Shown here piece by piece: positions 12,282 through 35,932 of a stretch of DNA of 38,008 nt. Under the pieces are notes generated by a model. It was not told the DNA's origin, did no database searches, and worked only from the letters and a program-made list of their open reading frames with translations. This DNA comes from a virus. The DNA lies in the IMG/VR virus record IMGVR_UViG_3300022745_000094, positions 1 to 38,008 of that record. The stretch is one strand, 5' to 3'. Made by a program: the position numbers and the translations under genes. How positions within the stretch are numbered: position 1 is the stretch's first letter; every line of letters begins with the position of its first letter.

Positions 12282-13764
12282 CTTCCTCACTCGCAAAATC
12301 ACGCGTGACAAGCTTGCAAAAGTTTTTGGGAACCATGAGGCCATTAAACTTATGGAATCCCTTACGCAGGACGTAGGGCAGACCGTTCCAGAGTCGTTGA
12401 CGGAAGTGGAGCAGCTTGCCAGGAATGCGCTGGCAATTGCAGGACAGGCGCTGATTCTGGCTGGAGAGGCGGGAGGCGGAGACGATGGCGGCGGCGGTGC
12501 ACCTGGGCAGCAAGGTCCTACAGGAGCTCTAGGATCGACTGGACCGGCAGGCCCTCCAGGACTTGGAGTCGACGGAATCGACGGAGAAGAAGGATTTGCA
12601 ATTCCGGGCCCTCCTGGTCCACAAGGATCTCCCGGATCTGCAGGGGTAAATGGCGCTGTCGGTCCAGCTGTCTACCTGGAAGCGCCAGAAGCTGACGAAC
12701 CAATGGCCATTCCGGGGCCACCAGGTGCAGCCGGGTTTAATGGAACACCTGGAGCACAAGGTCCTGCTGGTCCCGCAGTCTTTCTCGAAGCGCCGGAAGC
12801 CGATGAACCCATGGCAATGCCTGGACCTGCCGGCGCCGCAGGACCTCAGGGCGCAACAGGAAGCGCTGGACCTCAGGGCGCACCAGGCGTTGCGGTATTT
12901 GTATTGGATGGCCAAGACGGTGACGATGGGTGGCCTATTCCTGGACCTACTGGCGCTTCTGGATCACCTGGAGCCACCGGACCAGCCGTGTACTTAGAAG
13001 CAGATGCCATAGAAGGCGATATGGGTCCTCCGGGTCCTGCAGGAACTGCCGGAGTTGCTGGATCTCCAGGCGCGCAAGGACCAGCTGGTCCTGCAATTTA
13101 TTTGGACGCACCAGAAGCAGAAGAGCAATTAATTATTCCAGGCCCAGCAGGAGGTACCGGACCAACTGGGTCGGCAGGAGCGCAAGGGCCTGCAGGACCA
13201 GCTATATATCTTGAAGCGCCAGAGGCAGATGAGCCAATGTACATCCAAGGGCCGCAGGGCAACAGCTCACCGGCCGGTCTGCTTGCAATTGCTGGCGGTA
13301 AGACAGCAACAACATCGATTGCGGCGACAGTCACCCTCACAACCGGTGGCGTAACACTTGCATCCCAGGTAGCAGCTGCCGGGTCTGCGTGGCGCATAAA
13401 GGCTACTGGCCAATTTGTTGCAGCCTCCAGCGCCACGGCGCGCAATGCGACTATTCAAGCCTTTTGGGGTGCCACGGGACTTCCGATTTTGACCGTTGGG
13501 GCTGTGCTTGTCTCCGTGGCCCAAACGACCAACTTTGAGGTCGAGATCATTATTAGCGCGTCCAGCACCACGGCAATCTGGGAGACCGGTTTTGCGCTCA
13601 ATCAAGTCGCATCGGCAACGGCGCTTGCGCTGGCTGCCATCACACCAGCGTCGACCGTCGTTACTGCAGGCGGCCAGACCATCGATCTTCGCTTTGCAAT
13701 GAGCGTCGCAGTGGCCGGGGATTCCTGGTCTGTCCAACAAGTAACCATCGAACGTATCAAGTAA
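12274..13764 (+). CDS. Collagen-like fibre in the tail-needle position
   Basis: 496 residues from the GTG at 12274, chosen for the AAGGG at 12261-12265; a GTG three codons upstream is possible. Residues 1-65 are helical, probably a trimeric coiled coil that docks on the tail. From about 70 to 330 runs a Gly-X-Y collagen repeat, interrupted about seven times by an acidic module of the type YLEAPEADEPM followed by PGP. The last 160 residues form a beta-rich, Thr/Ala-rich domain likely to be the distal, host-contacting tip. In P22 this place is held by the needle gp26, so this may be its counterpart. Confidence 0.85.
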   Translation: MVDFLTRKITRDKLAKVFGNHEAIKLMESLTQDVGQTVPESLTEVEQLARNALAIAGQALILAGEAGGGDDGGGGAPGQQGPTGALGSTGPAGPPGLGVDGIDGEEGFAIPGPPGPQGSPGSAGVNGAVGPAVYLEAPEADEPMAIPGPPGAAGFNGTPGAQGPAGPAVFLEAPEADEPMAMPGPAGAAGPQGATGSAGPQGAPGVAVFVLDGQDGDDGWPIPGPTGASGSPGATGPAVYLEADAIEGDMGPPGPAGTAGVAGSPGAQGPAGPAIYLDAPEAEEQLIIPGPAGGTGPTGSAGAQGPAGPAIYLEAPEADEPMYIQGPQGNSSPAGLLAIAGGKTATTSIAATVTLTTGGVTLASQVAAAGSAWRIKATGQFVAASSATARNATIQAFWGATGLPILTVGAVLVSVAQTTNFEVEIIISASSTTAIWETGFALNQVASATALALAAITPASTVVTAGGQTIDLRFAMSVAVAGDSWSVQQVTIERIK

Positions 13765-19496: not shown

Positions 19497-21284
19497 ATGA
19501 CCATCAATGCAACCGAGAACCCCATCCCGCTGTATTTCGACACGGATGGCACACCCCTGGACAACGGATCTATCTACTTCGGCCAGGCAAACCAGAACCC
19601 AGAAACCAATCCCATCACGGTGTACTGGGATGCAGCTGGTACCCAGCCCGCAGCGCAGCCCATCAAGACGGTGAACGGCAAGACGGCACGCAATGGAAAC
19701 CCTGCCGTGGTGTACGCCGGATCGGACTATTCAAACACGGTGCGCAACAAACGGGGTTCCCTGGTGCAATCATTTCCCAGCGCCTCGGCTTTTAGCTTTG
19801 CCATTCAAATCCAAGCGGCTATGGCCGCATCTTCTGGTGCGTCAATGATTGGGTTAATCCAAGCAGGCATTGGTGCTGTGGCACGGACGGTACAGGATAA
19901 ATGCAGAGAATCGGTAAGCGTTCTGGATTTCGGGGCTGACCCTTCGGGGTCGACTGATAGCACAAGTGCGATTCAGGCGGCAATTACTGCGGCAGCTGGT
20001 GGAACTTTAATATTCCCTAAAGGAACATATCTTTGCGGCGCATTAACAATCCCGCCGGCATCTAACACCGAAATATGGGGGCAAAACGCGGTAATTAATT
20101 TTAATTCGACAGGAGCTGCGTTGTTTTCAATTGGCACTGCGGTGGGCTCTGATTACAACGTCAATATCCATATCCACGGATTCATCTTAAACGGTCAAGC
20201 TAAAATTGCTTCTGTGGGGTTGTTTATTGGGCATATGCATGGAGTCCGTATAAGCGACATGCAGTTTTACAATTTCACTTCATACCACATTCGTTTGTCG
20301 AATGCTTGGATATTCCAAGGCGAAAACGTGGTGTGCCAAACGACTAGTGGAACTTGCACATCGTTGCTTTTCATTGACGTTGGAACACAGCAAGCCAATT
20401 TTTACAACTGTCGATTTCTGTCCAACGCAGGTAACGATGGCGTCCGTATAGATCAAGCAATTAACAATGCTTTCTATAACTGCGACTTTGAAGGCTGCGC
20501 ATTTGGCGTTCGCATTACTCAATCTGTAGCAGTAGGAGCAACTGCGTGTGACGGAAATAACTTCGTAAATTGCGACTTTGAAAATAACAATTCCTATGCT
20601 TTTGCAGTAGGACCAGTGACATATGGCAACTTCGCCACTGCCGCAATCAATGGAACCAATTTTGAGAACTGCAACTTTACTGGACCTCAAACCCTGCTGT
20701 TTGACCAATCAAACAAGGCCAGATTAACCAATGCCAGGTTGAACAATGTAACCATTCAAACGACCGGAAACGCTTTGCAGACGCAAGCAAGCTGGGCTTA
20801 TTCATATCTGTTGACTTGGAACATTGCAACGCCGTCACAGTGGATTGATATGAACATGGACACGGGGACTTTTGTCCCTACTGTCATCACATCCAATGGT
20901 CAATCGCCAAGCATCTACACGGCTCAGGTTGGTAGATACACCCGCAATGGTAGGCTGGTTACTATTTACGGGCAGGTTTACTGGAGCAACTCTTGGTCAG
21001 CAACTCCAACTGGCAGCCTGTACATTCAAATTCCTATAACCTTTGCAAGTTCTGGTGCGGGCTTGATATTCAAGAATGGCGAATACCAAGCTGTTGCAAT
21101 GCTGCAAAGTGGTGCCGGATTTACTTTCACTTCTGGAATGCAATTAAGTGGTTATGCCGCTGGTGGTCAAAGCTATATAGTCCCAGTGCAGTTCAACTTT
21201 AACACTGCGTTTGTCGGTATTACTCCACCGCAAGCTGCTGGTAATTTGTTTTTCTCTGGAACCTTTGAGATAGACAACATCTAA
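19497..21284 (+). CDS. Tailspike: P22-type head-binding domain plus beta-helix
   Basis: 595 residues. Residues 1-110 resemble the P22 tailspike head-binding domain (NPIPLYFDTDGTPLDNGSIYFG, GNPAVVYAGSDYSNTVRN), which fixes the spike to the tail hub. From about 140 the pectate-lyase-like start SVLDFGADPSGSTDSTSAIQ opens a right-handed beta-helix rich in Asn and Cys (NFVNCDFENNN, FENCNF), followed by a C-terminal beta domain. It probably binds and cleaves surface polysaccharide. From roughly base 20000 the AT content rises sharply and codon use differs from neighbours, a sign that the receptor-binding part was acquired by exchange while the docking domain was kept. Confidence 0.9.
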   Translation: MTINATENPIPLYFDTDGTPLDNGSIYFGQANQNPETNPITVYWDAAGTQPAAQPIKTVNGKTARNGNPAVVYAGSDYSNTVRNKRGSLVQSFPSASAFSFAIQIQAAMAASSGASMIGLIQAGIGAVARTVQDKCRESVSVLDFGADPSGSTDSTSAIQAAITAAAGGTLIFPKGTYLCGALTIPPASNTEIWGQNAVINFNSTGAALFSIGTAVGSDYNVNIHIHGFILNGQAKIASVGLFIGHMHGVRISDMQFYNFTSYHIRLSNAWIFQGENVVCQTTSGTCTSLLFIDVGTQQANFYNCRFLSNAGNDGVRIDQAINNAFYNCDFEGCAFGVRITQSVAVGATACDGNNFVNCDFENNNSYAFAVGPVTYGNFATAAINGTNFENCNFTGPQTLLFDQSNKARLTNARLNNVTIQTTGNALQTQASWAYSYLLTWNIATPSQWIDMNMDTGTFVPTVITSNGQSPSIYTAQVGRYTRNGRLVTIYGQVYWSNSWSATPTGSLYIQIPITFASSGAGLIFKNGEYQAVAMLQSGAGFTFTSGMQLSGYAAGGQSYIVPVQFNFNTAFVGITPPQAAGNLFFSGTFEIDNI

Positions 21285-24884: not shown

Positions 24885-25172
24885 TTACCCCTGCAGGCGG
24901 TGACGAACGACGGACGGAAACGGGTTGTGCGCGGCCGGCCCATCAATGCGTGGGATACCGTCATCGGTGGGCGGCTGCTCCAGAAACTTGCTGTTGTCTT
25001 GGCCGGTGATCTTTAGGTATTCGTTTTCGACTTTGGCGGTGTCGACCAGGACGCTGGCCACCTGGGCCACAGCCTTGGCGCGCTCGATGTCCATGGGTTG
25101 CTCACGGTTGCGCAGATCTGCAAGGGTGTCCAGGAGCGATTGGCGCACCTGGTCAATGTGTGGGTTAGGCAT
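24885..25172 (-). CDS. Small helical phage protein
   Basis: 95 residues. The N-terminal two thirds form one or two helices with LLDTLADLRNREQPMDIERAKAV and VLVDTAKVENEYLK, a pattern seen in many small phage proteins of unknown role, followed by a disordered Pro-rich tail. The start overlaps the end of the HNH gene by eight bases, so the genes are probably co-translated. Confidence 0.6.
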   Translation of the reverse strand: MPNPHIDQVRQSLLDTLADLRNREQPMDIERAKAVAQVASVLVDTAKVENEYLKITGQDNSKFLEQPPTDDGIPRIDGPAAHNPFPSVVRHRLQG

Positions 25173-25836
25173 GCTCAGCCTCCTTTTTGATTCGGTTTAC
25201 TTGGCGGGTGATCTGGCCTTTGAGGACGTGCAACTGCATCATTTCCGGATCAGTCTTCCAAACGCTGTTACGCAGCGCGTTTTCCTTCAGGCTGATGCAC
25301 TCCAGGCGGTCGATGGTGATTTCTTCCAGGACGGTGGTTTTCATGCCAGACCTGAACGTGATGACGTGGCGCGCTGGGATTGGGCCATTGGCTTCTTTCC
25401 AGACCAGGCGGTGCACGCCCTCCCAGTTCAATCCACCGTTATTTCCTTCGCGGATCTTTCGAACCAGGTATCCGTCTGAGTTGAGCTTGTGAGAGCCAAG
25501 CGGCATCCAGTTTGGCGGGCGCTGGCCTTTTATGAAGCTGGTCGCGCTGGTCTTTCCAGGAAACTTCTTTCCGGCACACCAAGGCTTTTGACCGGGCCGG
25601 AAGCGCATTCCGTTATCGCGCTTTCCATCCAGGTAGCCGCCCATCGCCGTGAGGTACTCGGGCGACTTCTTGATTCCCAACTTCTTGGCGATTGCATAAA
25701 GTGACTTTTCACTGTGCCGGCCAAGCAGCCTGATGATCTCGGCGTTCTTGGTGTTTGGATAGAGCTGGATCACGAGCGCCTTCTCTGCGTCAGTCCAGAA
25801 TACTTTTGGCGGCAGGATGCCGCGGCTCTTAGTCAT
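25165..25836 (-). CDS. HNH-domain protein coupled to the reverse transcriptase
   Basis: 223 residues. Residues about 14-60 look like a Myb/HTH-type DNA-binding region (WTDAEKALVIQLYPN ... KKLGIK). The C-terminal part, VHRLVWKEANGPIPARHVITFRSG, has the layout of the HNH_3 family found in phage homing-type nucleases, though the final His/Asn positions are degenerate, so activity is uncertain. Its ATG overlaps the RT stop (ATGA at 25833-25836) with AGGAG inside the RT gene, so the two are translated together. It may be a free-standing homing endonuclease or a helper of the adjacent retroelement. Confidence 0.75.
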   Translation of the reverse strand: MTKSRGILPPKVFWTDAEKALVIQLYPNTKNAEIIRLLGRHSEKSLYAIAKKLGIKKSPEYLTAMGGYLDGKRDNGMRFRPGQKPWCAGKKFPGKTSATSFIKGQRPPNWMPLGSHKLNSDGYLVRKIREGNNGGLNWEGVHRLVWKEANGPIPARHVITFRSGMKTTVLEEITIDRLECISLKENALRNSVWKTDPEMMQLHVLKGQITRQVNRIKKEAEHA

Positions 25837-27194
25837 GCCGATTTACTCCTGAATGTTTTTGTTAAGTCACCATTGATCACGTGCCCGCGCTTGCGCAGCA
25901 GGTTCGCCACCAGGGCGCGGTCTGTGTGGCTGTGAGTTGCCTGGCGGAGCAGGCCGAAATAGCTGTTCCCTGACTGGTGAAGGTCGGCGGCCGGCATGGT
26001 GGATATCCGGTCCAGTGCGACGTTGAGCGACTTGCGCCGGGTGATGCGCCGCCACGGCTTGATCACTTGGCCAACAAAGTCGATTCCGCGCTCCACCGGC
26101 TGCAGGATGGTCTTGCGTGGGTTCAGCTGCAGATGCAGGTCGGCCAGCTTTCCCTCGATCCGCTCGCGTGCTTGGTTGAGCCACTGCGGGCTGTCATGCA
26201 ACAGAACGAAGTCGTCAACGTAGCGCACATAGTGGCGCGCCGGCAGCCGGTGCTTGCAAAACTGATCCAGATCATCCAGCAGGACATTGGCAAAGAACTG
26301 CGACGACAGGTTGCCAATCGGCAGGCCATGGCCGTCCGGAGCATTGAACAGGCTTTTGTGCGGTGGCACCAGTGCCAGTTCCTGGCGGGTCCCGCGAATT
26401 TCCACGTTTGTGCGCGGGTCGTGCATCAGGATCGTTTCCGCAAGCGACAGCAGCCACGGCTCCGTCACCTTGCGTGCCAGCTGGCCGCGAAGTACTTCCT
26501 TGTCGATTGACACAAAGAAGTTCGCCAGATCGCACTTGAGGTAGTGCGCCGGGCGGCTCCAGTTTTGTGTTTGGCTGCGCACCTGGTGTTCCAGGCGCTT
26601 GGCTGCGTACAGGGTGCCGCGTCCTGGGATACAGGCGCAGCTGTCGGCCACAAAGCTGGCGTGGTAGCGCGGAGCGATGTGGTTGTACAGATAGTGGTGA
26701 ACGATGCGGTCGCGGAACCGTGCGGCCCAGACCTCCCGCGGCTTCAGATGGGTGATCACGAAGCAAATGGAGGCGTCGGGATGGTAGGTGCCTTCCTTCA
26801 ATTCCTCGTACAGCTGGAACAGGTTGTGTTCTGCCATGGCCTCGAATGCCTGTGCGCTGGCGCTGGTGCGCTTGGTGCGGCGGCAGTCGAGATAGGCCTG
26901 AACCAGGTTTTCGAATAGGTGTGGATCTGCGGACGGCAACAGCCGAAAGCTCGTTGTTCTTGTGGTTGTTGTTCTGGTTGCCGTTGTTGAAGTTGCAATC
27001 CCAGGCGTAGGAGGCGTACCTTTCGCGCGAACCACGCCGCCACCCCGAAGGCCGTAGCCGATCAGGGTGGAAGCTGCACCGAACCGGGCCAGCGCAGGCG
27101 CTGCGGTTTCCGTGATGTGCATGTCCGTAGCCTTGTGGTCCAGGGGCGCGACCAGATTCACTTTGCGCACGGGCATGAGGGCCTTGACCGTCAT
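25833..27194 (-). CDS. Reverse transcriptase of a diversity-generating retroelement
   Basis: 453 residues. It copies the TR RNA into cDNA with errors at adenines. Hallmarks are the first catalytic Asp222 in YLKCDLANFFVSID, the DGR-type motif LPIGNLSSQFFAN (291-303) and RYVDDFVLL with Asp327-Asp328. The RT homology begins near residue 90 (HLFENLVQAYLDCR). The frame is open from an ATG that overlaps the avd stop (ATGA at 27191-27194), giving an N-terminal extension of about 90 residues; residues 59-89 are the TR read in another frame (Thr-rich). No suitable ATG or GTG lies between TR and the catalytic domain. There is no group II intron maturase or domain V. Confidence 0.93.
   Translation of the reverse strand: MTVKALMPVRKVNLVAPLDHKATDMHITETAAPALARFGAASTLIGYGLRGGGVVRAKGTPPTPGIATSTTATRTTTTRTTSFRLLPSADPHLFENLVQAYLDCRRTKRTSASAQAFEAMAEHNLFQLYEELKEGTYHPDASICFVITHLKPREVWAARFRDRIVHHYLYNHIAPRYHASFVADSCACIPGRGTLYAAKRLEHQVRSQTQNWSRPAHYLKCDLANFFVSIDKEVLRGQLARKVTEPWLLSLAETILMHDPRTNVEIRGTRQELALVPPHKSLFNAPDGHGLPIGNLSSQFFANVLLDDLDQFCKHRLPARHYVRYVDDFVLLHDSPQWLNQARERIEGKLADLHLQLNPRKTILQPVERGIDFVGQVIKPWRRITRRKSLNVALDRISTMPAADLHQSGNSYFGLLRQATHSHTDRALVANLLRKRGHVINGDLTKTFRSKSA
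26929..27018 (-). repeat. DGR template repeat (TR)
   Basis: 90 bases inside the 5' part of the RT gene that match the 3' ends of three other genes without gaps. On the minus (sense) strand it holds 26 adenines, including nine AAC codons when read in the VR frame (YASYAWDCNFNNG ... HKNNELSAVAVR). Its last 21 or so bases, without variable positions, are nearly constant in all copies and probably include the site where mutagenic homing starts. Across the three VRs, 25 of 26 differences from TR are at these adenines. Confidence 0.95.
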
Positions 27195-27553
27195 ACAGCA
27201 GGCGCCCTATTCGAATTTTTGAGCCATCCGCCAGCCTGTTTGCCGATGCTGCCCAGCAGCTCTATCGACTCGGCCCAGATTTTGGGAGAGATATACCGGG
27301 CATCGTGACTGACGCGCAGCAGGACCGTGATGGCGCGCTGGCGGGTCAGCAGGTCCTCAATGTGCGCAGCGCGATTTCCACGCTGTGATGCATTGGCGAG
27401 GGCCATGAGGTCAAGCATTTCAACGCAATGCTGGGTGATCTTCTCGCCCAGAATGCGCTTCATGCTGCGCGGCATCTGTTCCTGCACCTTCACTGCCAGG
27501 GTAAGCAAATGCACCCCTGTGCGGTAGATTGGTAGCTCTGTATGGATGGCCAT
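27191..27553 (-). CDS. avd: Avd, accessory variability determinant
   Basis: 120 residues, all helical. The pattern IYRTGVHLLTLAVKVQEQMPR followed by KRILGEKI is typical of Avd, the small four-helix protein that forms a pentameric ring, binds the RT and the template RNA and is needed for mutagenic homing. It sits between the last target gene (target C) and the TR-RT unit, the usual DGR order. Its stop overlaps the RT start. The region from 27554 to 27591 holds a conserved VR-flank element rather than a gene. Confidence 0.92.
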   Translation of the reverse strand: MAIHTELPIYRTGVHLLTLAVKVQEQMPRSMKRILGEKITQHCVEMLDLMALANASQRGNRAAHIEDLLTRQRAITVLLRVSHDARYISPKIWAESIELLGSIGKQAGGWLKNSNRAPAV

Positions 27554-27569
27554 TGGCGGGGCTCAAATT

Positions 27570-27589
27570 AAAGGATCAAAGGACTAAAG
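27570..27589 (-). repeat. VR1 flank element
   Basis: On the plus strand AAAGGATCAAAGGACTAAAG, eleven bases past the end of VR1. Related elements follow VR2 (28066-28084) and VR3 (33661-33680) but not the TR. The shared form is AAAGRATYR followed by AAGRAYTRAAG. It is pyrimidine-rich on the mRNA strand. It could help mark the VR as recipient, or be a remnant of cassette duplication. Confidence 0.5.
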
Positions 27590-27591
27590 GC

Positions 27592-28047
27592 TCAAACTCT
27601 GCGGACGGCAACAGCCGAAAGCTCGTTGAGCTTGTGGTTGTCGTCCTGGGTGCCGTTGATGAAGTCGCAATCCCAGGCGAAGGAGGCGTCATCCTCATGG
27701 GTCTGGCTGGACCAGTGCCATACGCCTTCCAGGTGCGGCTTGCAGTTGGCGAACAGCAGGGCCTGCTCCTGGCGGCTTGGCAGCGATCCGCCGATGCTCT
27801 GTGCCCAATCCATGGCGGCTTGCCAATTCAGCTTCTTGCCGGGGCGCTGGGCCATCAGCACCAGGTGGTGCATGTGGTCGCCGTCTTCGTCAAGTACTGC
27901 GCCGGCATAGCGCTCGCCAGGCTGCAGCTCGATGGTGGCTTCTTCGATTTCGATGCAGGTGACTGAGGTGGCCTGCTCTTGGAAGGCTTGGATCATGGCG
28001 GCCAGTTCAGTCTGGCGCGCCTGGATTGCTTCGATGGTTACGGACAT
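27592..28047 (-). CDS. DGR target C: coiled-coil plus variable lectin-like domain
   Basis: 151 residues from the ATG at 28047 (AGGAA upstream); reading further upstream only runs into VR2 in a wrong frame. Residues 1-30 form a coiled coil (EAIQARQTELAAMIQAFQEQ), probably for oligomerisation. From about 40 lies the DGR-type C-type-lectin (DUF1566-like) fold: GERYAGAVLDEDG, HHLVLM, WQAAMDWAQSIGGSLPSRQEQALLFAN, VWHWSS, then the variable tail ending SAVAVRR. Diversification should alter the exposed binding face. It is the target nearest avd. Ligand unknown. Confidence 0.9.
   Translation of the reverse strand: MSVTIEAIQARQTELAAMIQAFQEQATSVTCIEIEEATIELQPGERYAGAVLDEDGDHMHHLVLMAQRPGKKLNWQAAMDWAQSIGGSLPSRQEQALLFANCKPHLEGVWHWSSQTHEDDASFAWDCDFINGTQDDNHKLNELSAVAVRRV
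27601..27689 (-). repeat. DGR variable repeat VR1
   Basis: The 3' end of target C, aligned to TR without gaps. It differs from TR at eight positions, all of them adenines in the sense strand of TR. The resulting residues include DCDFINGTQDDN in place of the Asn-rich template. Confidence 0.95.
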
Positions 28048-28065
28048 TGCTGGTGTTCCTGAATT

Positions 28066-28084
28066 AAAGGATTGAAGAATTAAG
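28066..28084 (-). repeat. VR2 flank element
   Basis: AAAGGATTGAAGAATTAAG on the plus strand, 16 bases from VR2. It is the second member of the element found beside all three VRs, and it overlaps the stop of target B (28080-28082). Confidence 0.45.
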
Positions 28085-28475
28085 CGGTGATGGGAATCAA
28101 GCGGACGGCAACAGCCGAAAGCTCGTAGCCCTTGTGGCTGATGATCTGGCCGCCGTCGTTGAAGTTGCAATCCCAGGCGTAGGAGGCGTAATATTCGTCA
28201 GCGGTCCAGTGCCATTCGGGCGACAGCGCGGGCTGTACATTGGCAAACAGCAGGGCTGCAACGGGACGCGTTGGCAGCTCGCCGCCTTGCTCTGCGGCCC
28301 AGGCCTTGGCAGCCTCCCAGGTCAAGTCCTCGGCCTTTCCAGACAGCAGGACAACGGCGCAGTGCGTGCCGTCCTTGGTGGTGGTCAGGCCGGCAAAGGT
28401 GCCGCCCTCCAGATCGGTGCCCAGGGCGGGCAGGGCGGCGAGGGAAATGCTTGCAATGATGGTTTTTGCGTTCAT
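28080..28475 (-). CDS. DGR target B: exported-looking variable lectin-like protein
   Basis: 131 residues. The N-terminus MNAKTIIASISLAALPALG looks like a short Sec signal peptide (a Lys, then a hydrophobic core), which the other two targets lack. The lectin-like domain follows at once: EGGTFAGLTTTKDG, CAVVLLSG, WEAAKAWAAEQGGELPTRPVAALLFAN, EWHWTADE and the variable tail. If the signal works, the protein would reach the periplasm or cell surface of an infected cell or lysogen. The start codon has only a weak ribosome site but is preceded by the repeated TTAACC...CACCAACC leader motif. Confidence 0.9.
   Translation of the reverse strand: MNAKTIIASISLAALPALGTDLEGGTFAGLTTTKDGTHCAVVLLSGKAEDLTWEAAKAWAAEQGGELPTRPVAALLFANVQPALSPEWHWTADEYYASYAWDCNFNDGGQIISHKGYELSAVAVRLIPITA
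28101..28190 (-). repeat. DGR variable repeat VR2
   Basis: Nine differences from TR, all at sense-strand adenines, with no gaps. Near the 3' end of target B it gives NFNDGGQIISHKGYE. VR2 still has the constant end SAVAVR but continues as LIPITA before the stop. Confidence 0.95.
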
Positions 28476-28490
28476 GGTTGTTCTCTGAAT

Positions 28491-28506
28491 GGTTGGTGGT
28501 GGTTAA
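28491..28506 (-). promoter_or_regulatory. Leader motif after stop codon, before target B
   Basis: Sense strand TTAACCACCACCAACC; the TAA is the stop codon of the upstream gene. Similar motifs stand before RecT (32035-32052) and the coiled-coil gene (33073-33085), with a weaker one at 29060-29076. Each lies about 13-17 bases before an ATG. Function unknown. Confidence 0.4.
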
Positions 28507-29048
28507 TCGTCCAGGTCGGTCTGATCGACCACAGGTGGCGCCAGGCGCATTTGGATTTCACGGTTCTTCAGCGTTGCCAGTCGGCCGAACACCTGCTCGG
28601 GCACATCCTGCGACTCGGCCACAAATGTCACGGTCACCGTTCCGCCTTCGTGCGGATCGATGCGGAAATTGGAGAGGGCCACGTCACCGATGGACAGATT
28701 GGAGTTCTTGCCGCCCAGGCCCTGGTCGATCTCCAGGCTGTAGCCCATCAGATCGTGGTCCCAGTGGAAACGTCCGATGCGGCCACCGATCACAGTCAGG
28801 TTCGGCATGTCGGTGATTTCCTCGACGCCATCCAGCCCTTTCTGTTTTGGGCCCGCGGAACTGGCAGCGCTCTTTGCGTACAGGAACGACTTCAGGGATC
28901 CGTCAAAGTAGCTCAGATGGTGATTGCTCAGCTCCATGCTGAATGACAGCGCGGCGCCCGGGTTGGCATCGGCCTCGCGGTTTTTCTGCGACAGGACCGC
29001 AACGTCGGTGATCTTGGCCTTGGTGAATTCTTCGAGTTGGAAGGGCAT
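28503..29048 (-). CDS. Phage protein of the recombination operon, function unknown
   Basis: 181 residues, beta-rich. It has FSMELSNHHLSYFDGSLKSFLY, a LTVIGGRIGRFHWDHDLMGYSLEID segment interrupted by turns, and a FRIDPHEGGTVTVTF strand. Proteins of this type occur next to RecT and exonuclease genes in betaproteobacterial phages and might bind single-stranded DNA or partner with the recombinase, but I know of no direct demonstration. The gene lies between the Tad2-like gene and target B. Confidence 0.65.
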   Translation of the reverse strand: MPFQLEEFTKAKITDVAVLSQKNREADANPGAALSFSMELSNHHLSYFDGSLKSFLYAKSAASSAGPKQKGLDGVEEITDMPNLTVIGGRIGRFHWDHDLMGYSLEIDQGLGGKNSNLSIGDVALSNFRIDPHEGGTVTVTFVAESQDVPEQVFGRLATLKNREIQMRLAPPVVDQTDLDD

Positions 29049-29129
29049 GTTAATTTTTTCGGTTGGTGATGTAGGTGGGTCGGGCTGCGTGATCTCCCCC
29101 GGGAAACCCCAGAGGCGCAGCCCGGGAAA

Positions 29130-29534
29130 TCAGTCGACGATGGCCCAGTCCTCGGCCAGCATGTCGGTCTGCGAGGCCAGCCACGGCACGCGCGCTCCGG
29201 GGGTGTTTTTTGCGTCGAGCGGGTAGCTCATGTAGATGTAGGGCAACGTCATCTTGCTGTTGGCGTCAGGAACCTGCAGCGTCAGCCAAAGGCCAGCGCC
29301 GTTCCAGCCGGAGCGGCGAACCTTGAGGCCCTTTTTCAGCGCTTCCAGCGCCAGCCCAAAGGTCATTGCATCGCACTCGCGATAAGCTTCCTCGAAGGCT
29401 GCAGCAGGGCTCCAGCTGGTGTATCCGTCAGGGTAGACAACCGTGTAGCCGGGTTGGCCTTGTTGCTCCTGTGGGCCGTAGTTTTTCTCACGGGGCTCAG
29501 CGTCGATGATCTTGGTGCCGATATAGCGTTTCAT
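29130..29534 (-). CDS. tad2: Tad2-like (DUF2829) anti-Thoeris protein
   Basis: 134 residues. The C-terminal 75 residues, MTFGLALEALKKGLKVRRSG then WNGAGLWLTLQ and ending DMLAEDWAIVD, are the DUF2829 domain. Known Tad2 proteins of this family form tetramers that bind and sequester the signalling molecule made by Thoeris defence. An N-terminal segment of about 55 residues (MKRYIGTKIIDAEP ... GYTSWSPAAAFEEAY) is fused in front, a combination seen in other phages. Placement in the early leftward operon fits a counter-defence role. Family is clear; the exact ligand is inferred. Confidence 0.85.
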   Translation of the reverse strand: MKRYIGTKIIDAEPREKNYGPQEQQGQPGYTVVYPDGYTSWSPAAAFEEAYRECDAMTFGLALEALKKGLKVRRSGWNGAGLWLTLQVPDANSKMTLPYIYMSYPLDAKNTPGARVPWLASQTDMLAEDWAIVD

Positions 29535-29564
29535 TTCAGTTTGCTTTCAGGGTTGGGGAAGGGG

Positions 29565-30182
29565 TCAGGCGGACAGCGGTTGCTGCTGCTTCAGGTCTTG
29601 GATTGCGAAGTACACATCCATGCAGCCCTTCACATCGGCCATGGCGCTGTGGGCGTTTTCCAGCGGCTTGCCGGTGAAGTGCTGGACGCATTCGCCCAGG
29701 TTGGCGCTCTTGAAATGGTTGCGGCCGACTGCCTTCATCTTTGCGGTGGGCGGCAGCTTCAGGATGGGTGTCGCCAGGCGCTGGGTGCACTCGGAGTCCC
29801 CAGCCTTCCATTCGTCGGCCATTTCGGCATTGAAGTGGCGCAGCAGCGCAATGCGCACCAAGCGCGCGTCGAACTGCTCGTTGTGGGCGATGCGCTTGCG
29901 ACCTGTGGCCAGCTCCAGGAACATCTGAAGCGCCAGCTTGGCAGGAACTCCGACAGCACGCGCATGCTCGGTGGTGATGCCGTGGATTGCGGCCACCTCT
30001 TCGGAGATAGTCCAACCGTCGGGCTGAATGATCACATCCATGCTGGCGATGGTGTGGCGGGTGTCCAGGTCAACCAGGCAGGCCGCGAGTTGCACGATGT
30101 GCGGCTGCGCCGGGTGTTCGCTGGGTTCGTTGAACAGGGGGAGGCCTGTCGTCTCTGTGTCGTAGAAGATTGCGTCGTTCAT
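29565..30182 (-). CDS. DnaQ-like 3'-5' exonuclease
   Basis: 205 residues from the ATG at 30182, which overlaps the stop of a 51-residue gene (ATGA). An alternative ATG at 30230 has a perfect GGAGGT site and would add 16 residues. Exo I is FYDTETTGLP (Asp8, Glu10); later HNEQFDARL and HSAMADVKGCMD supply the remaining DEDD residues. It probably trims or degrades single-stranded DNA during recombination or replication, next to RecT and the YqaJ nuclease. Confidence 0.87.
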   Translation of the reverse strand: MNDAIFYDTETTGLPLFNEPSEHPAQPHIVQLAACLVDLDTRHTIASMDVIIQPDGWTISEEVAAIHGITTEHARAVGVPAKLALQMFLELATGRKRIAHNEQFDARLVRIALLRHFNAEMADEWKAGDSECTQRLATPILKLPPTAKMKAVGRNHFKSANLGECVQHFTGKPLENAHSAMADVKGCMDVYFAIQDLKQQQPLSA

Positions 30183-30334
30183 TTGGTGCTTTCGGTTTTT
30201 GGGGCGCTTGAGAGGCGCAGGTGTTTGCATGGAGTACCTCCGGAATAGAGGTATGCGTAGGGGTCAAACATGGGCCAAATCGGGGTGCGGCCCCAGATTT
30301 GCCAAATCACAATGACGGTGGGTTTGAATCTCAT
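30179..30334 (-). CDS. Small protein (51 aa) between two nucleases
   Basis: A 51-residue frame whose ATG overlaps the stop of the YqaJ-type nuclease gene (ATGA at 30331-30334) and whose TGA overlaps the ATG of the DnaQ-like gene (30179-30182). Overlaps at both ends are strong evidence for translation. The protein is rich in Trp, Pro and Tyr (VIVIWQIWGRTPIWPMFDPY) with a basic tail. It may touch membrane or a partner protein. No family recognised. Confidence 0.7.
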   Translation of the reverse strand: MRFKPTVIVIWQIWGRTPIWPMFDPYAYLYSGGTPCKHLRLSSAPKTESTK

Positions 30335-31014
30335 GCGGCCACCTTGAACAGGTCGGCGTTTGACGAGAATGGCAGGCGGAACAGGGATTCGCGCACCATC
30401 ACGTTGGATCGGAAGCGCAGCAGCTGGCGCACCATTTCGTCAATGAAATCGTCGTCGCGGTGGATACGCTTCACGTACAGCTCATTGCCGGCAGGCTCCA
30501 GATCGGGCACATACATGATGAAGTCGCACCACTGGCGCCCGGTGATCCACAGGCCGCCCTGGATTTGATGGATGTATTCCGACACGTCGCCGGTCTTGAA
30601 CATCGCCGCGATCTTGTTTGGATCGATGGGGCACTTGATTTCAATCAGTCCGTCATCGTCAACCAGGCCGTCAGTAGAGTAGCCAAACCAGTCGTCATCG
30701 GTCTTGCACACGCCAGCCTCTTCGGCCAACAGTCCGGTGCGAGATTCCCAGCGGCGGCGCGCGACAGTCTCCAGGTCGTGGCCTCGGTCCAGTACCCATG
30801 CCTTTGGTGGCTCACCATAGGCGCGCTCACTGATTCGCTCAATGGCTACAGTGCCAGCATATTTGTCTGCGGCATCTGTTGGGTCACCGGCTTTCTTCTC
30901 ACCGCTGGTGCGCGTCAGTACGCTGATGGCAGTGGAAAAATTGCTTGCTGTGATGCAGCCTGCGCGCGCGGCCAGCCACTCCGGCGTGCCTTGATCGCAT
31001 TCAATGAATTTCAT
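30331..31014 (-). CDS. YqaJ-type (lambda exonuclease-like) recombination nuclease
   Basis: 227 residues. Conserved points are GTPEWLAARAGCITASN at the N-terminus, RGHDLE (Glu82), STDGLV (Asp115) and EIKCP (Glu125-x-Lys127), the PD-(D/E)XK core of the YqaJ family. It would resect double-stranded ends 5' to 3' to supply substrate for RecT. Its ATG overlaps the RecT stop (ATGA), the normal exonuclease-annealase pairing. Confidence 0.93.
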   Translation of the reverse strand: MKFIECDQGTPEWLAARAGCITASNFSTAISVLTRTSGEKKAGDPTDAADKYAGTVAIERISERAYGEPPKAWVLDRGHDLETVARRRWESRTGLLAEEAGVCKTDDDWFGYSTDGLVDDDGLIEIKCPIDPNKIAAMFKTGDVSEYIHQIQGGLWITGRQWCDFIMYVPDLEPAGNELYVKRIHRDDDFIDEMVRQLLRFRSNVMVRESLFRLPFSSNADLFKVAA

Positions 31015-32027
31015 GCTGCACCGCCTTCCAGTTTGACTTTCATTTCTTCAAACTTGGCAGCCAGCACATCCTTGCCGTCTTCTACGGTTTCAATCCATTC
31101 GCCCCAGATGTACAGCGCATCAATGTCCTTGGCTGCGCACAGGCCGGCCATCACCTCGTCAAACGTCTTGGATGTAGGGGACTGCGCATTCTGAGCGCCC
31201 TTGATTTCGCCGGTGTCTTGGTCCACCACGGTCTTGGCCTTTAGCGCCTTGCGGTGCGCAATGACCGCATCTTTGAACGACTGGTGATCGTCTGGCTGCT
31301 TGGAAAACTTGCCGTTGTGTTCTTTCCAGTAGGCCGCTGCAGCCTGGTCTGTCGTGGTTTCGCGTGCGCCTACCAGGTAGGGTCGAACATCCACGGTGTC
31401 GACCACTTCATCCGCGGCGCCCATGTAGCGGGTCTTTGGAACATCGACCAGTTCTTCCGGCGTATAGACGCCCAAGATCGCACCAGGGCAGAACAGGCGG
31501 GCCCAATTCTTGACCTGCAGGTATCCCATCTGCTGCTTTGGGTTTGTTTTCCACAGCGGCGAGTTCTTGGTTGTCACCTTTGACTCGCTCAGCCACTCAC
31601 CCCAGGTAATTTCGGCCTCTCCCTTGATCACGGCGCCGACGCGGCACTGCAGGCTTGGACTTTCACCCTTGTATTCATAGTGAAACCGGCCGCTGATGGT
31701 GTTTGACTGCTGCACCACGGCATTGACCAGCTGCGCCTCGTAGCCCAGCGTCCCGTTGACAAGATGGGTTTTCTGGGCAACAGCGAACGGATTCATTCCC
31801 CATTGCATTGCCTGCATCACAACTGCCATGCAGTCGGACGGATTCTTCTGCAGGTGCACTGGCACTGTGCTTTTACCGCTGGCCATCAGATCGGCGACGC
31901 GCATCAGCGTTTCCATGGTTCCGGTGTCCATCATCAGGGAGCTTGCTTGCGCGCGGCCGGTATCAGCCAATGCGCCGGATTCAATGGTTTGCAGCGCGGT
32001 GCTTTCGGGTTTTGTGGTTGTGTTCAT
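31011..32027 (-). CDS. recT: RecT-family single-strand annealing protein
   Basis: 338 residues. The RecT core is evident: LMASGKSTVPVHLQ, a DCMAVVMQAMQWGMNPFAVAQ segment, HLVNGTLGYEAQLVNAVV, and MGYLQVKNWARLFCPGAILGVYTPEEL. It anneals complementary strands exposed by the adjacent nuclease. About 100 C-terminal residues extend beyond the core and may contact partners. The gene follows the coiled-coil gene after 21 bases that contain the TTAACCCCACCACCAACC leader motif. Confidence 0.93.
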   Translation of the reverse strand: MNTTTKPESTALQTIESGALADTGRAQASSLMMDTGTMETLMRVADLMASGKSTVPVHLQKNPSDCMAVVMQAMQWGMNPFAVAQKTHLVNGTLGYEAQLVNAVVQQSNTISGRFHYEYKGESPSLQCRVGAVIKGEAEITWGEWLSESKVTTKNSPLWKTNPKQQMGYLQVKNWARLFCPGAILGVYTPEELVDVPKTRYMGAADEVVDTVDVRPYLVGARETTTDQAAAAYWKEHNGKFSKQPDDHQSFKDAVIAHRKALKAKTVVDQDTGEIKGAQNAQSPTSKTFDEVMAGLCAAKDIDALYIWGEWIETVEDGKDVLAAKFEEMKVKLEGGAA

Positions 32028-32034
32028 GGTTCGT

Positions 32035-32052
32035 GGTTGGTGGTGGGGTTAA
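32035..32052 (-). promoter_or_regulatory. Leader motif after stop codon, before recT
   Basis: Sense strand TTAACCCCACCACCAACC directly after the stop of the upstream gene (the TAA is that stop codon), eight bases before the RecT ATG. No clear purine-rich ribosome site is present, so this motif may matter for RecT translation. Confidence 0.4.
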
Positions 32053-33059
32053 ATGAATTCGGCAGAAATGCGCTCGGTGACTTCGCTCAGGTCCATGGCC
32101 AGCAGCCACTCCAGAACTTTGGATTCGTGCACGCGGTAGTGCAGGGCCAGCACGTCGACAATTTCCATGTCGGTGGGGCGGCCGGCCTTTTGTGCCGGCG
32201 TGGCGATGCTTGTGACATTTGCAGTCGGCAGCGGGTGGGATTCAGGAAATGCCGCCACGGCCTGGGCGAACTGCTGCACCTGTGCTTCGAAGTCATCGGC
32301 CGGCGTAACCACCTTGGGCTTGGCATCCTCGATGGCTTTGGCTGCTGCTGCCCGGGCAGCGGACAGTTCGGCGCGCTCACGATCCAGCGCTGCACGCTCC
32401 TCGGCCAATCGCTTGGACTCGGCTTCCTGTTCGGCCTTCACCCGGGCACGCTCTGCCTCTTCGGACACCTTCTCGGCGTGCAGCTTTTCGACCTGCACCA
32501 CTACGCCATTGAAAGTGTTCTGGGCGTCTTCGGAGAACTCTTCGAAGCTGGAAAAGCCTGCGTCCCCGATAGCCTCCAGGCGCTGCAGCAGCTCCTGGAT
32601 GCGCTCTGCGGTGCGGCACTGGGCTGCCAGTGGCACATAGCCCCGGATTTCGCTGATGCGCTCGTGAATGGCGGTGATGCGGGCGCGCTCTTTGGCCTCG
32701 GCCTCGCGCTTGATGCGTTCCTGCTCCTGGTCCCATTCATCGCGCAGGGCAAGCAGGCGTTTTTCTTCGGGCTCAATGATGGCGATCAGGCGATCCTCTT
32801 CAGCGATCACGGCCTTGGAGAACTTTGTGGCATCGTCGCGTGCTGCCTTGCTGACCTTCTCAATATCGGTGCGGGCGGTGCGCAACTCCATCGCCGCGCC
32901 ATGCGCTTGCTGCCGGCCAGCCTTGTCGACCACTGCAACGATATGCATGTTCTTCATGGCCATGGCCGTCAGATCGGCCTCGGTCTGGGTGGAATTCAGC
33001 GCCAGCGCGGCGCGCGCCTGGACGGTGAGGGCGGAGCTGCGCTCCATTACTTCAGTCAT
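32049..33059 (-). CDS. Coiled-coil protein upstream of RecT
   Basis: 336 residues from the ATG at 33059, with GGAG nine bases upstream; the frame is open further but upstream starts lack support. Residues about 30-250 are an almost continuous charged coiled coil (EEDRLIAIIEPEEKRLLAL, EEAERARVKAEQEAESKRL). The C-terminus is a small folded region ending ERISAEFI. Similar long coiled-coil proteins accompany RecT systems in phages; the function is not established. It is not an SMC or SbcC protein, as no Walker motif is present. Confidence 0.7.
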   Translation of the reverse strand: MTEVMERSSALTVQARAALALNSTQTEADLTAMAMKNMHIVAVVDKAGRQQAHGAAMELRTARTDIEKVSKAARDDATKFSKAVIAEEDRLIAIIEPEEKRLLALRDEWDQEQERIKREAEAKERARITAIHERISEIRGYVPLAAQCRTAERIQELLQRLEAIGDAGFSSFEEFSEDAQNTFNGVVVQVEKLHAEKVSEEAERARVKAEQEAESKRLAEERAALDRERAELSAARAAAAKAIEDAKPKVVTPADDFEAQVQQFAQAVAAFPESHPLPTANVTSIATPAQKAGRPTDMEIVDVLALHYRVHESKVLEWLLAMDLSEVTERISAEFI

Positions 33060-33072
33060 AGTGGATTTCTCC

Positions 33073-33085
33073 GGTTGGTGGTTAA
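33073..33085 (-). promoter_or_regulatory. Leader motif before coiled-coil gene
   Basis: Sense strand TTAACCACCAACC, where the TAA ends a possible 32-residue gene. Third clear member of the post-stop motif group; here a GGAG site follows it. Confidence 0.35.
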
Positions 33086-33180
33086 AAGGTCCGGCGCATG
33101 GTTTCGAATGCGCGGCGCACAGCGCGCAGGGGCGTAGCGCCCCCACGGCGGTAGAAGGAAATGAGTCGGATAAAGACCAT
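33082..33180 (-). CDS. Possible 32-residue basic peptide
   Basis: An ATG at 33180 overlaps the TGA of the preceding gene (TGATG), and the frame runs 32 codons to a TAA that is part of the leader motif at 33073-33085. The peptide is strongly basic and amphipathic (FIRLISFYRRGGATPLRAVR), like small Arg-rich peptides seen in other podoviral early operons. It could be a regulator or an RNA-binding peptide. Evidence is position and composition only. Confidence 0.45.
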   Translation of the reverse strand: MVFIRLISFYRRGGATPLRAVRRAFETMRRTF

Positions 33181-33461
33181 CACAGCGAGATCCCCAAGGC
33201 TTCTTGGCGGGAGACATAGCGCGTGATCTGAGCTGCTTCAAGGTCAGAAGCGCTGCTCTCAGCGAAGTCCTCATCAGCCTTGACGCACAACTCGCCCCAG
33301 ACCTCGTCGGTCAGGGTGTCGTTGATGATCTTTCCCTGATACAGGACATTCACTATGTCGGTAGTAGTGAACGATCCACGCTCGTCGCAATCGGTCTCTG
33401 CGTCATATTCGACCGTTACGGTAGCGTTTCCGGCACCAATGGTGGTTTCAAAGCTGTACAT
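33180..33461 (-). CDS. Small acidic early protein
   Basis: 93 residues from the ATG at 33461; a longer form in the same frame would run through the membrane peptide gene. Starts MYSFETTIGAGNATVTVEYD, beta-like and acidic, with DCDERGSF, then a helical tail with SRQEALGISL. No family recognised. One base separates it from the upstream small gene. Confidence 0.6.
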   Translation of the reverse strand: MYSFETTIGAGNATVTVEYDAETDCDERGSFTTTDIVNVLYQGKIINDTLTDEVWGELCVKADEDFAESSASDLEAAQITRYVSRQEALGISL

Positions 33462-33462
33462 G

Positions 33463-33642
33463 TCAGCCCCGAGCAAAAATGCCAGACACCATGCCGACGA
33501 TGCACAACACCGCAAATACGGCGGTAAGGAAGTCCGCCATGGTCAGCGGGGAGGGATGTTCAACTGGCTGGCCCAACTGGTCAAAGTTGGAGCGGTAGCA
33601 GTCGCACGTGCGGCCCTGCTGGCAGTTGTGGTTGCAGCTCAC
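33463..33642 (-). CDS. Small Cys-rich membrane protein (59 aa)
   Basis: GTG at 33642 overlaps the stop of target A (GTGA) and is preceded by GGAGG at the right distance. The N-terminus has a CNHNCQQGRTCDC cluster, possibly metal-binding, and the C-terminus a membrane segment (FLTAVFAVLCIVGMVSGI). Small proteins with a C-x3-C-x4-GRxC-type head and one membrane helix occur in other phages near early genes; function unknown. Coupling to target A makes joint expression likely, and it could anchor or assist that protein. Confidence 0.7.
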   Translation of the reverse strand: MSCNHNCQQGRTCDCYRSNFDQLGQPVEHPSPLTMADFLTAVFAVLCIVGMVSGIFARG

Positions 33643-34106
33643 GCGGCCTCCACGGAAGTCAAAGAATTGAAGGACTGAAGAGACAACCTGCGGACGGCAA
33701 CAGCCGAAAGATCGTTGCCCTTGTGGTTGTCGTTCTGGTCGCCGGTGCTGAAGTAGCAACCCCAGGCGTAGGAGGCGTCTTCCTCTTCACTCGTCCAGTG
33801 CCAGCCAGATGTGGGTCGATTGGTGGTGTTAGTGAATATCAGCATCGCCTCGGCGCGCGTCGGCAGCCGGGCACCGTCACCAAGGCTCTCTGCCCAGGCA
33901 ATTGCGGCCTTCCAGGTCATGCGCGTGGTCGGGCGCGCATCGAGCAGCACCAGGTGGCCGGTGGCGCCGCCCTTGAGGTCGCTGGAAATTCCGATGTAGG
34001 TTCCGCCCAGCTCAGGCAGGTGCTGGCCAATAGCCGGAACAGATCCCGCTGCTGCGGTGGGTTTGGCCTTTGCTGCTCGCTTGGCCGGTGTCTTGGTGGT
34101 CGCCAT
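33639..34106 (-). CDS. DGR target A: basic-tailed variable lectin-like protein
   Basis: 155 residues from the ATG at 34106 (GGGAG eight bases upstream), the first gene after promoter PL. The N-terminus ATTKTPAKRAAKAKPTAAA is a histone-H1-like Lys/Ala/Pro tail, likely to bind nucleic acid or another acidic surface. The lectin-like domain follows (GGTYIGISSDLKG, HLVLLDARP, WKAAIAWAESLG, LPTRAEAMLIF, GWHWTSEE) and ends with the VR3 tail plus 14 more residues. It lies about 6 kb from TR and RT, so it is a remote target. Intracellular action is more likely than display, given the tail. Confidence 0.88.
   Translation of the reverse strand: MATTKTPAKRAAKAKPTAAAGSVPAIGQHLPELGGTYIGISSDLKGGATGHLVLLDARPTTRMTWKAAIAWAESLGDGARLPTRAEAMLIFTNTTNRPTSGWHWTSEEEDASYAWGCYFSTGDQNDNHKGNDLSAVAVRRLSLQSFNSLTSVEAA
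33661..33680 (-). repeat. VR3 flank element
   Basis: AAAGAATTGAAGGACTGAAG on the plus strand, nine bases from VR3. Together with 27570-27589 and 28066-28084 it forms the VR-associated element. Here it is translated as the LQSFNSL part of the target A tail. Confidence 0.5.
33690..33778 (-). repeat. DGR variable repeat VR3
   Basis: Nine differences from TR: eight at sense-strand adenines and one G-to-T change in the constant region (Glu to Asp in NDLSAVAVRR). Without gaps. It encodes WGCYFSTGDQNDNHKGND. The non-adenine change suggests that this VR has not been rewritten up to its very end recently. Confidence 0.93.
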
Positions 34107-34243
34107 CTCTATCACTCCCAGGTTGTTGGACAACCTCGCCACTTCCGCTGCAGGCCACCGGCCCTAACCCCCTTTCTGCATCCTGTCGGTTCGCCGCGTA
34201 TCGCTCGGCTGGGGTGTTTCGCTTTCGTTTGCGAGTGAAGTGA

Positions 34244-34285
34244 ATATTAGTGAACAGCTAACATTGTGTCAATAGCGAACAGCTA
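34244..34285 (-). promoter_or_regulatory. Promoter PL with two operators
   Basis: Minus-strand sigma-70 promoter TTGACA (34272-34267), 17-base spacer, TAATAT (34249-34244). Operators TAGTGAACAGCTA (34248-34260) and TAGCGAACAGCTA (34273-34285) are TAGC-N5-GCTA palindromes 25 bases apart. One covers the spacer and the first bases of the -10; the other abuts the -35. The pair at PR has the same sequence type, spacing and placement. PL drives the leftward operon with the DGR, recombination, Tad2 and integrase genes. Confidence 0.88.
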
Positions 34286-34326
34286 AACGTATAGAAAATT
34301 TTTTTTGATTGATCTGTTGTAGGATG

Positions 34327-35460: not shown

Positions 35461-35847
35461 TCATTTGTCCGTCGTGCCGTTTTTCTGATTTGAAGCTATG
35501 GTGGCTGCCTCGAAACGCTCGATACGTTCTCGAATCTGCCCCTGGATTTCGATCCGCTGTTCGTATGTCAGAGCGTTAAATCTTTCTGGCTCAATGCCTG
35601 GGAACGGCCACATCTTGAAATTTGTGTCCATCCAACCCACTGCCTTACCGGCATGAAGTTCAATTTTCCTGGCTCCAACACTGTCAATCTTTGTCCGTTT
35701 TCCACTGCGGAGCTGCCAAGCATAAACCTTTGATATTCCCAAGTTAAAGGCCACTTCGGAATCATTCAGTGGCGCACCTCGATGCGCTTCCAGCTCCCGC
35801 ACAAGGCCCTGGAAATTTTCGAGTCGAATTTCCTCAATTGTTCGCAT
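35461..35847 (-). CDS. CI-like repressor without protease domain
   Basis: 128 residues from the ATG at 35847; another ATG seven codons upstream (35868) is possible. Residues about 8-55 carry a helix-turn-helix (LENFQGLVRELE ... SEVAFNLGISKVYAWQLRSGKR), and the C-terminal half is helical (FNALTYEQRIEIQGQIRERIERFEA). It lacks the autocleaving serine-protease domain of lambda CI, so induction must work differently. Divergent from the cro-like gene with operators between them. It probably binds the TAGC-N5-GCTA sites at PR and PL. Confidence 0.82.
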   Translation of the reverse strand: MRTIEEIRLENFQGLVRELEAHRGAPLNDSEVAFNLGISKVYAWQLRSGKRTKIDSVGARKIELHAGKAVGWMDTNFKMWPFPGIEPERFNALTYEQRIEIQGQIRERIERFEAATIASNQKNGTTDK

Positions 35848-35882
35848 GCCAAGAGGGTAGCAATACATGACGTTTAAATGGT

Positions 35883-35924
35883 TAGCGGATGGCTATTGAC
35901 GAAACGTTGGCGGTTCGCTAATAA
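35883..35924 (+). promoter_or_regulatory. Promoter PR with two operators
   Basis: TTGACG (35896-35901), 17-base spacer, TAATAA (35919-35924). Operators TAGCGGATGGCTA (35883-35895) and TGGCGGTTCGCTA (35908-35920) are 25 bases apart, one abutting the -35 and the other lying in the spacer and touching the -10. The expected transcription start is at 35931-35932, so the cro-like ATG at 35933 has almost no leader. A weak leftward promoter for the repressor gene may overlap (TTTAAA at 35875-35880 as -10). Confidence 0.88.
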
Positions 35925-35932
35925 TCTCGTAC

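Follow-up and report, generated by a model that had tools for sequence, protein, structure and literature searches.

A diversity-generating retroelement of temperate phages with predicted lectin-fold targets in a probable early operon

Introduction

Diversity-generating retroelements (DGRs) of phages are usually pictured as changing the tail protein with which the phage grabs its host. The virus record IMGVR_UViG_3300022745_000094 of IMG/VR, analysed here over its whole length of 38,008 bases (the window), raises the question of what such an element diversifies when its target genes lie away from the tail genes. The minus strand of the window holds a complete DGR, which consists of a bAvd accessory protein, a template repeat (TR), a reverse transcriptase (RT) of the GxxxSQ type and three open reading frames (ORFs) ending in a variable repeat (VR). 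We refer to the genes with VR1, VR2 and VR3 as the remote target, target A and target B. We suggest that the window shows an active DGR cassette carried by temperate phages, and that its targets would be small free-standing lectin-fold proteins made from a repressor-controlled early operon. Taken as a whole, with the targets acting as variable binders inside the infected cell, this is the best explanation, and we give it a probability of roughly 55%.

Results

The VR1 gene lies directly behind a sigma-70 type promoter, PL, its start codon being about 140 bases downstream of the promoter and operator site. The two operator-like repeats at PL read TTAGCTGTTCACTAA and TTAGCTGTTCGCTAT. A 52-nt stretch covering PL and these repeats recurs in inverted form (75%) at 35875-35926, on the other side of the repressor gene, and a terminator-like site at 34351-34332 closes off the repressor side. 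Lambdoid phages have the same layout of OL/PL and OR/PR around their repressor. Promoter and operator calls are consensus matches, and the weight of the PL call rests on the mirrored 52-base repeat, because promoter-like sites in the region are no more numerous than in shuffled sequences. Since promoter and operator-like repeats stand directly ahead of the VR1 gene, these predicted signals put it at the head of a PL-type operon, to which VR2, VR3, Avd and RT also belong. The latter four are on the strand of VR1 and follow RecT, exonucleases and a Tad2-like ORF; the run includes a RecE/YqaJ-like and a DnaQ-like exonuclease. The Tad2-like ORF has the domain well above its cut-off, and anti-Thoeris activity is predicted for it. 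The original prediction had placed a complete DGR with three target genes on the minus strand, downstream of PL in a repressor-controlled early operon and mixed with RecT, exonuclease and anti-defence genes. ORFs and domain matches confirm the parts and their strand, promoter, operators and strand strongly support the operon, and all of the named neighbours are found in the same gene run. An obligate partnership of the DGR with RecT was considered and dropped, as PF03837 occurs in only 5 of 51 related records, and we claim no special link.

The virion genes (terminase, P22-type portal, coat, head closure, fibre, ejection proteins and tailspike) are on the plus strand. None of them carries a VR: the best match to TR within positions 1-25000 of the window has 46% identity at non-adenine positions, compared with at least 97% for the true VRs. 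This agrees with the earlier claim that the tailspike and collagen fibre, on the other strand, are unrelated to TR. Among 40 related phages, the 11-20 kb stretches scanned outside the DGR locus contain no VR, and structural marker genes are opposite to the DGR/RT strand in all 31 phages scored. In the related records, Baseplate_J (12 records), gpJ-type Phage-tail_3 (16) and P22-type portal (6) are mutually exclusive. On the RT tree these tail types are intermixed, with 14 changes of label against a shuffled mean of 15.7, and the nearest RT relative of the window (L006, 81%) is a Baseplate_J phage. The cassette thus moves freely between unrelated tails, which makes a fitted tail part an unlikely product of it. 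By gene position, strand and tail-type tests, the targets are not placed among the virion tail genes as in Bordetella phage BPP-1. We conclude that they are very probably early and non-virion. The core of the original prediction, that this early-operon DGR does not diversify tail genes, is therefore strongly supported by strand, promoter and operators, and the lack of a link between cassette and tail type. Its label of a P22-like phage stands for the window, on matches to the portal (phrog_156, E 1.3e-134), head closure (phrog_578, E 1.9e-101) and ejection PHROGs. The expected neighbourhood does recur in phages with a P22-type portal, but equally in lambda gpJ-type and baseplate-J phages, so the cassette is not special to P22-like phages.

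The window belongs to a large family of related cassettes. Searches with the RT yielded 80 loci from viruses and 80 from genomes, to which annotated phages were added; 166 loci were examined, of which about 13 are duplicated between collections and about 150 are distinct. The loci are mostly from Pseudomonas and Burkholderiales. About 140 of them follow the order target A, target B, avd, TR, RT, and some 40 also have a remote target upstream of these. Burkholderia phage Magia (L166) and Pseudomonas phage Cruim01 (L168) resemble the window in that, beyond the repressor, the gene run opens with the remote target. Annotated temperate phages have the cassette between the integrase and repressor genes, and an integrase is present in 41 of 51 related records. 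Besides Magia and Cruim01, isolated phages with the cassette include Shewanella phage vB_Sb_QDWS and Pseudomonas phages Haboob and LPPA56. The arrangement is a family trait.

Signals for expression were scanned across the family as well. Outside the Pseudomonas set, a promoter-like site lies upstream of 7 of 25 remote targets, compared with 6% in shuffles; in the same scan such sites are almost never found ahead of targets A and B, where there is no enrichment. In roughly half of the Pseudomonas set (e.g., L101, L105, L113), targets A and B are followed by intrinsic-terminator-like hairpins, which are hardly ever seen in the other loci; this may point to antitermination or separate expression in Pseudomonas.

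TR and the three VRs of the window differ in the manner of a DGR, in that 26 of the 27 mismatches are at TR adenines (pooled binomial P = 4e-13; VR1 9/10, VR2 9/9, VR3 8/8). The RT has the motifs IGNLSSQ, which is the DGR-type GxxxSQ, and YVDD, and the bAvd match is above its cut-off. In the family, a script for A-tolerant repeats near the RT found 354 VRs, all on the RT strand, giving TR/VR pairs in 163 of the 166 loci. TR adenine sites are changed in 4280 of 10393 cases and other sites in 215 of 24192, a contrast that is partly built in, as the search favours A-type mismatches. Pairs of near-identical phages provide a control free of this bias. L070 and L072 are identical in RT, the 250-nt flank and TR, and their VRs differ at 17 of 28 adenines in target A and 14 of 29 in target B, whereas the differences at other sites number 1 of 73 and 0 of 73, respectively. 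A second pair, L012 and L015, likewise matches throughout RT, the 250-nt flank and TR, and in target B 13 of 27 adenines differ between the two. Judged from these comparisons, both tandem targets undergo A-directed turnover in nature between near-identical relatives, and the TR/VR pattern in the window indicates that its DGR is recently active. A lack of A-directed variation among relatives had been named as grounds for abandoning the original prediction; the opposite is seen.

The targets are small, mostly lack membrane segments and have a predicted C-type-lectin fold with the VR at the C-terminus. The AlphaFold2 (AF2) model of target B has a predicted local distance difference test (pLDDT) score of 97.2 and consists of an N-terminal helix and a C-type lectin domain; its closest structures are Bd2740 (Z 14.1) and Lcl (Z 13.1). 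For target A the pLDDT is 86 overall, with lower confidence within the VR. None of the three reaches the gathering cut-off of Lcl_C (PF07603; 34.9 bits), the VR1 gene scoring 27.7 and the VR3 gene 21.0, with no match for VR2. Among 55 B-type targets, 53 match only phrog_4245, of unknown function, and none matches a tail family. Pfam and PHROG give no function beyond the lectin domain, and no effector, signalling or NTPase domain was found by Pfam, PHROG or PADLOC. In PADLOC the RT matches generic RT/DRT models only, and the targets match none. Small free-standing lectin-like products, as originally proposed, are thus supported by the predicted fold and by a domain that stands nearly alone. Export and membrane insertion were assessed by hydropathy only, which flags 17 of 316 targets; these are mostly cases of Ala-rich N-termini and include none of the window's three. 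Export of the targets is disfavoured on this basis. On the minus strand near the low end of L189, a stretch from the record of L044, there is a lectin homologue of the targets that has no VR.

All three VR classes, in the window and in most relatives, are followed by a T-rich tract with an 8-base period, approximately (A/C)TTYARTC repeated. The lag-8 identity is 0.43-0.46 after VRs (z 14-27) and 0.21 after TR, where the tract is absent. A GC-rich hairpin with a 4-nt GRNA loop of the BPP-1 type is found after none of the three window VRs, and GRNA loops occur in 6 of about 311 distinct VR flanks; hairpins after the Pseudomonas VRs mostly have other loops, and many are terminator-like. The BPP-1-type hairpin was therefore rejected as the VR-flanking element of this family. 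The 8-nt tract may instead be the target-recognition element of this DGR group.

The TR of the window lies inside the RT ORF, whose reading frame runs through it. An RT frame that stays open across TR is seen in 129 of 163 loci. In the window, moreover, no usual start codon separates TR from the conserved RT part, and for these reasons TR is probably translated as well, as a putative portion of the RT ORF. The stop codon of avd overlaps the ATG of the RT ORF (ATGA). Coordinates are collected in Table 1.

Table 1. Positions of the DGR parts and of other features in the window
Feature	Position	Strand	Remarks
RT ORF, 453 aa	25833-27194	-	RVT_1 53 bits; phrog_1423 E 1e-112; conserved RT part from about residue 90
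TR core	about 26925-27018	-	A-biased match to three VRs
Avd accessory protein	27191-27553	-	bAvd PF22296 47.9 bits, cut-off 40; phrog_3206 'Avd protein of DGR'
Target B (VR3 gene), 151 aa	ORF 27592-28047; VR3 27598-27689	-	N-terminal helix and predicted lectin-fold domain
Target A (VR2 gene), 131 aa	ORF 28080-28475; VR2 28101-28190	-	predicted lectin-fold domain nearly alone
Remote target (VR1 gene), 155 aa	ORF 33639-34106; VR1 33686-33778	-	first gene after PL; weak Lcl_C match
8-nt-period tract after VR1	33645-33680	-	
8-nt-period tract after VR2	28056-28085	-	
8-nt-period tract after VR3	27560-27590	-	
PL promoter with two operator-like repeats (OL)	34272-34244; region 34242-34293	-	TTGACA-17-TAATAT
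Phage repressor gene	35461-35868	-	phrog_12107 'transcriptional repressor' E 5.3e-8
OR/PR-like region	35875-35926	+	75% complementary to OL/PL; promoter-like site TTGACG-18-AATAAT
Tad2-like (Thoeris anti-defence) ORF	29130-29534	-	PF11195 84 bits, cut-off 25
HNH endonuclease ORF	25165-25836	-	directly after RT, overlaps RT stop
Fibre/collagen-like ORF	12265-13764	+	
Tailspike-like ORF	19497-21284	+	

Discussion

We propose that the single TR would feed A-mutated cDNA to three target genes. The VR1 protein would be made once PL opens, and those of VR2 and VR3 would come from further down the same operon, together with Avd and RT. We infer that the targets are cytoplasmic variable binders. They would act inside the infected cell on host or competitor proteins, and several target copies would give several specificities at once. 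Binding of defence proteins and blocking of competitors were among the functions offered by the original prediction, and either may apply inside the cell. Lambdoid phages keep take-over and anti-defence genes directly behind PL. Because of the position directly behind PL and the Tad2-like neighbour, a role in counter-defence or host take-over is our first choice, though a tentative one. With somewhat more reserve, we put forward a hypervariable counter-defence repertoire, in which widespread temperate-phage DGRs diversify immediate-early intracellular binders, so that ready variants would neutralise changing defence or competitor proteins.

Several points weigh against this interpretation. The Tad2-like neighbour is guilt by association only. 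We infer a single transcript from PL to RT only from the common strand and the lack of strong terminators, and in the many Pseudomonas cassettes with terminators after targets A and B, expression may differ. Near-identical relatives of the window were searched for and none was found, so the turnover described above is that of other phages of the family. Finally, the start codons of some targets may be misassigned.

Among the other explanations, the one we take most seriously, though it is rather unlikely, is expression of the targets in lysogens, where they would protect the cell that carries the prophage, as variable sensors or blockers of incoming competitor phages. The place of the cassette between integrase and repressor genes, the integrase in 41/51 records and the many Pseudomonas loci in which terminators behind A and B suggest separately controlled units would all fit. 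However, the repressor-type operator ahead of VR1 in the window should keep this gene silent in a lysogen, no promoter-like enrichment is found ahead of A or B, and no effector domain was found in the targets. Somewhat less probable still is that the targets are virion components after all, such as a small adhesin tip or an ejected protein, and are merely encoded early. This has in its favour the tail targets of phage DGRs described in a global survey (PMC8144416) and lectin-fold relatives that form the tips of surface fibres or adhesins. It is opposed by the strand, opposite to structural genes in 31/31 phages, by homologous targets across unrelated tail types with a cassette tree independent of tail type, and by the absence of tail-family matches among the targets. 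The tail-protein reading is accordingly disfavoured by strand, by the scans outside the DGR locus in 40 records and by the distribution of tail types on the RT tree.

We consider it improbable that the targets are exported or cell-surface lectins that bind neighbours or, as the original prediction had allowed, alter the surface of the infected cell. Their solved relatives Lcl and Bd2740 are indeed surface proteins, but by hydropathy the window's three targets and most relatives have no obvious signal peptide or membrane segment. Finally, the only sign of a decayed or inert DGR carried by chance is one non-adenine change in VR1. The ORFs are intact, the A bias is almost pure, about 150 distinct loci conserve the cassette and near-identical phages show turnover. 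The probability of a decayed DGR is negligible, and the bias and the turnover lead us to discard it.

Compared with BPP-1 (mtd/atd/brt), the window has the same order of target, Avd, TR and RT, adenine-specific mutagenesis and a lectin-fold variable protein. It differs in that the BPP-1 target Mtd is a tail protein of 381 aa, that TR is intergenic in BPP-1, and that BPP-1 has a hairpin with a GRNA loop after its VR (PMC3240598), where the window has the 8-nt repeat tract. In the global survey, targets of viral clades 1, 4 and 6 are mostly tail proteins and many others are 'unknown' (PMC8144416). The survey's viral targets resemble ours in having a C-terminal VR in lectin-fold proteins; its stress for these clades is on tail structural proteins, and an early-operon class of small free-standing targets is not described in the text covered. 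Legionella Lcl and Bdellovibrio Bd2740, of the Lcl_C/DUF1566 type, share the predicted fold, but their domains are the C-terminal parts of larger proteins, whereas the window's domain is nearly alone and below the Pfam cut-off. Variable non-tail proteins are also known from the DGR-diversified putative antigen sensors of multicellular bacteria (PMC10907252). Unlike those, the window targets are phage-encoded and early and have no detected effector or NTPase domain, so that they do not qualify as such sensors.

The closest precedent is Magia (MT701587), which has the same cassette with an RT 63% identical to that of the window, avd, tandem targets and a remote target that comes first beyond the repressor region; it differs in being described as a myophage (PMC7883833). 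Its authors remarked on a potential DGR whose targets are short reading frames, and proposed that it serves adaptation or a change of host range (PMC7883833). Magia gene 46 (L166 12516-12607) holds a third VR, which is not listed in the published announcement naming genes 47 and 57 (PMC7883833). The original prediction had contrasted the window with classic phage DGRs that diversify a tail protein; the window does differ from these, but short-ORF targets had already been noted for Magia. In the literature covered, which was mostly without subscription papers and preprints, no early-operon DGR class is described except for this short-ORF remark, made once, and neither the independence of the cassette from tail type nor the 8-nt repeat tract is described.

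The DGR family described here is large and recurring. It acts on small early proteins in temperate phages with unrelated tails, among them phages of Pseudomonas and Burkholderiales. The diversified trait is probably something other than host attachment. Isolated phages with the cassette allow the question to be tested directly. If the targets act inside the cell, phages would have in them a set of binders that is renewed continuously, much like antibodies, for the intracellular arms race.

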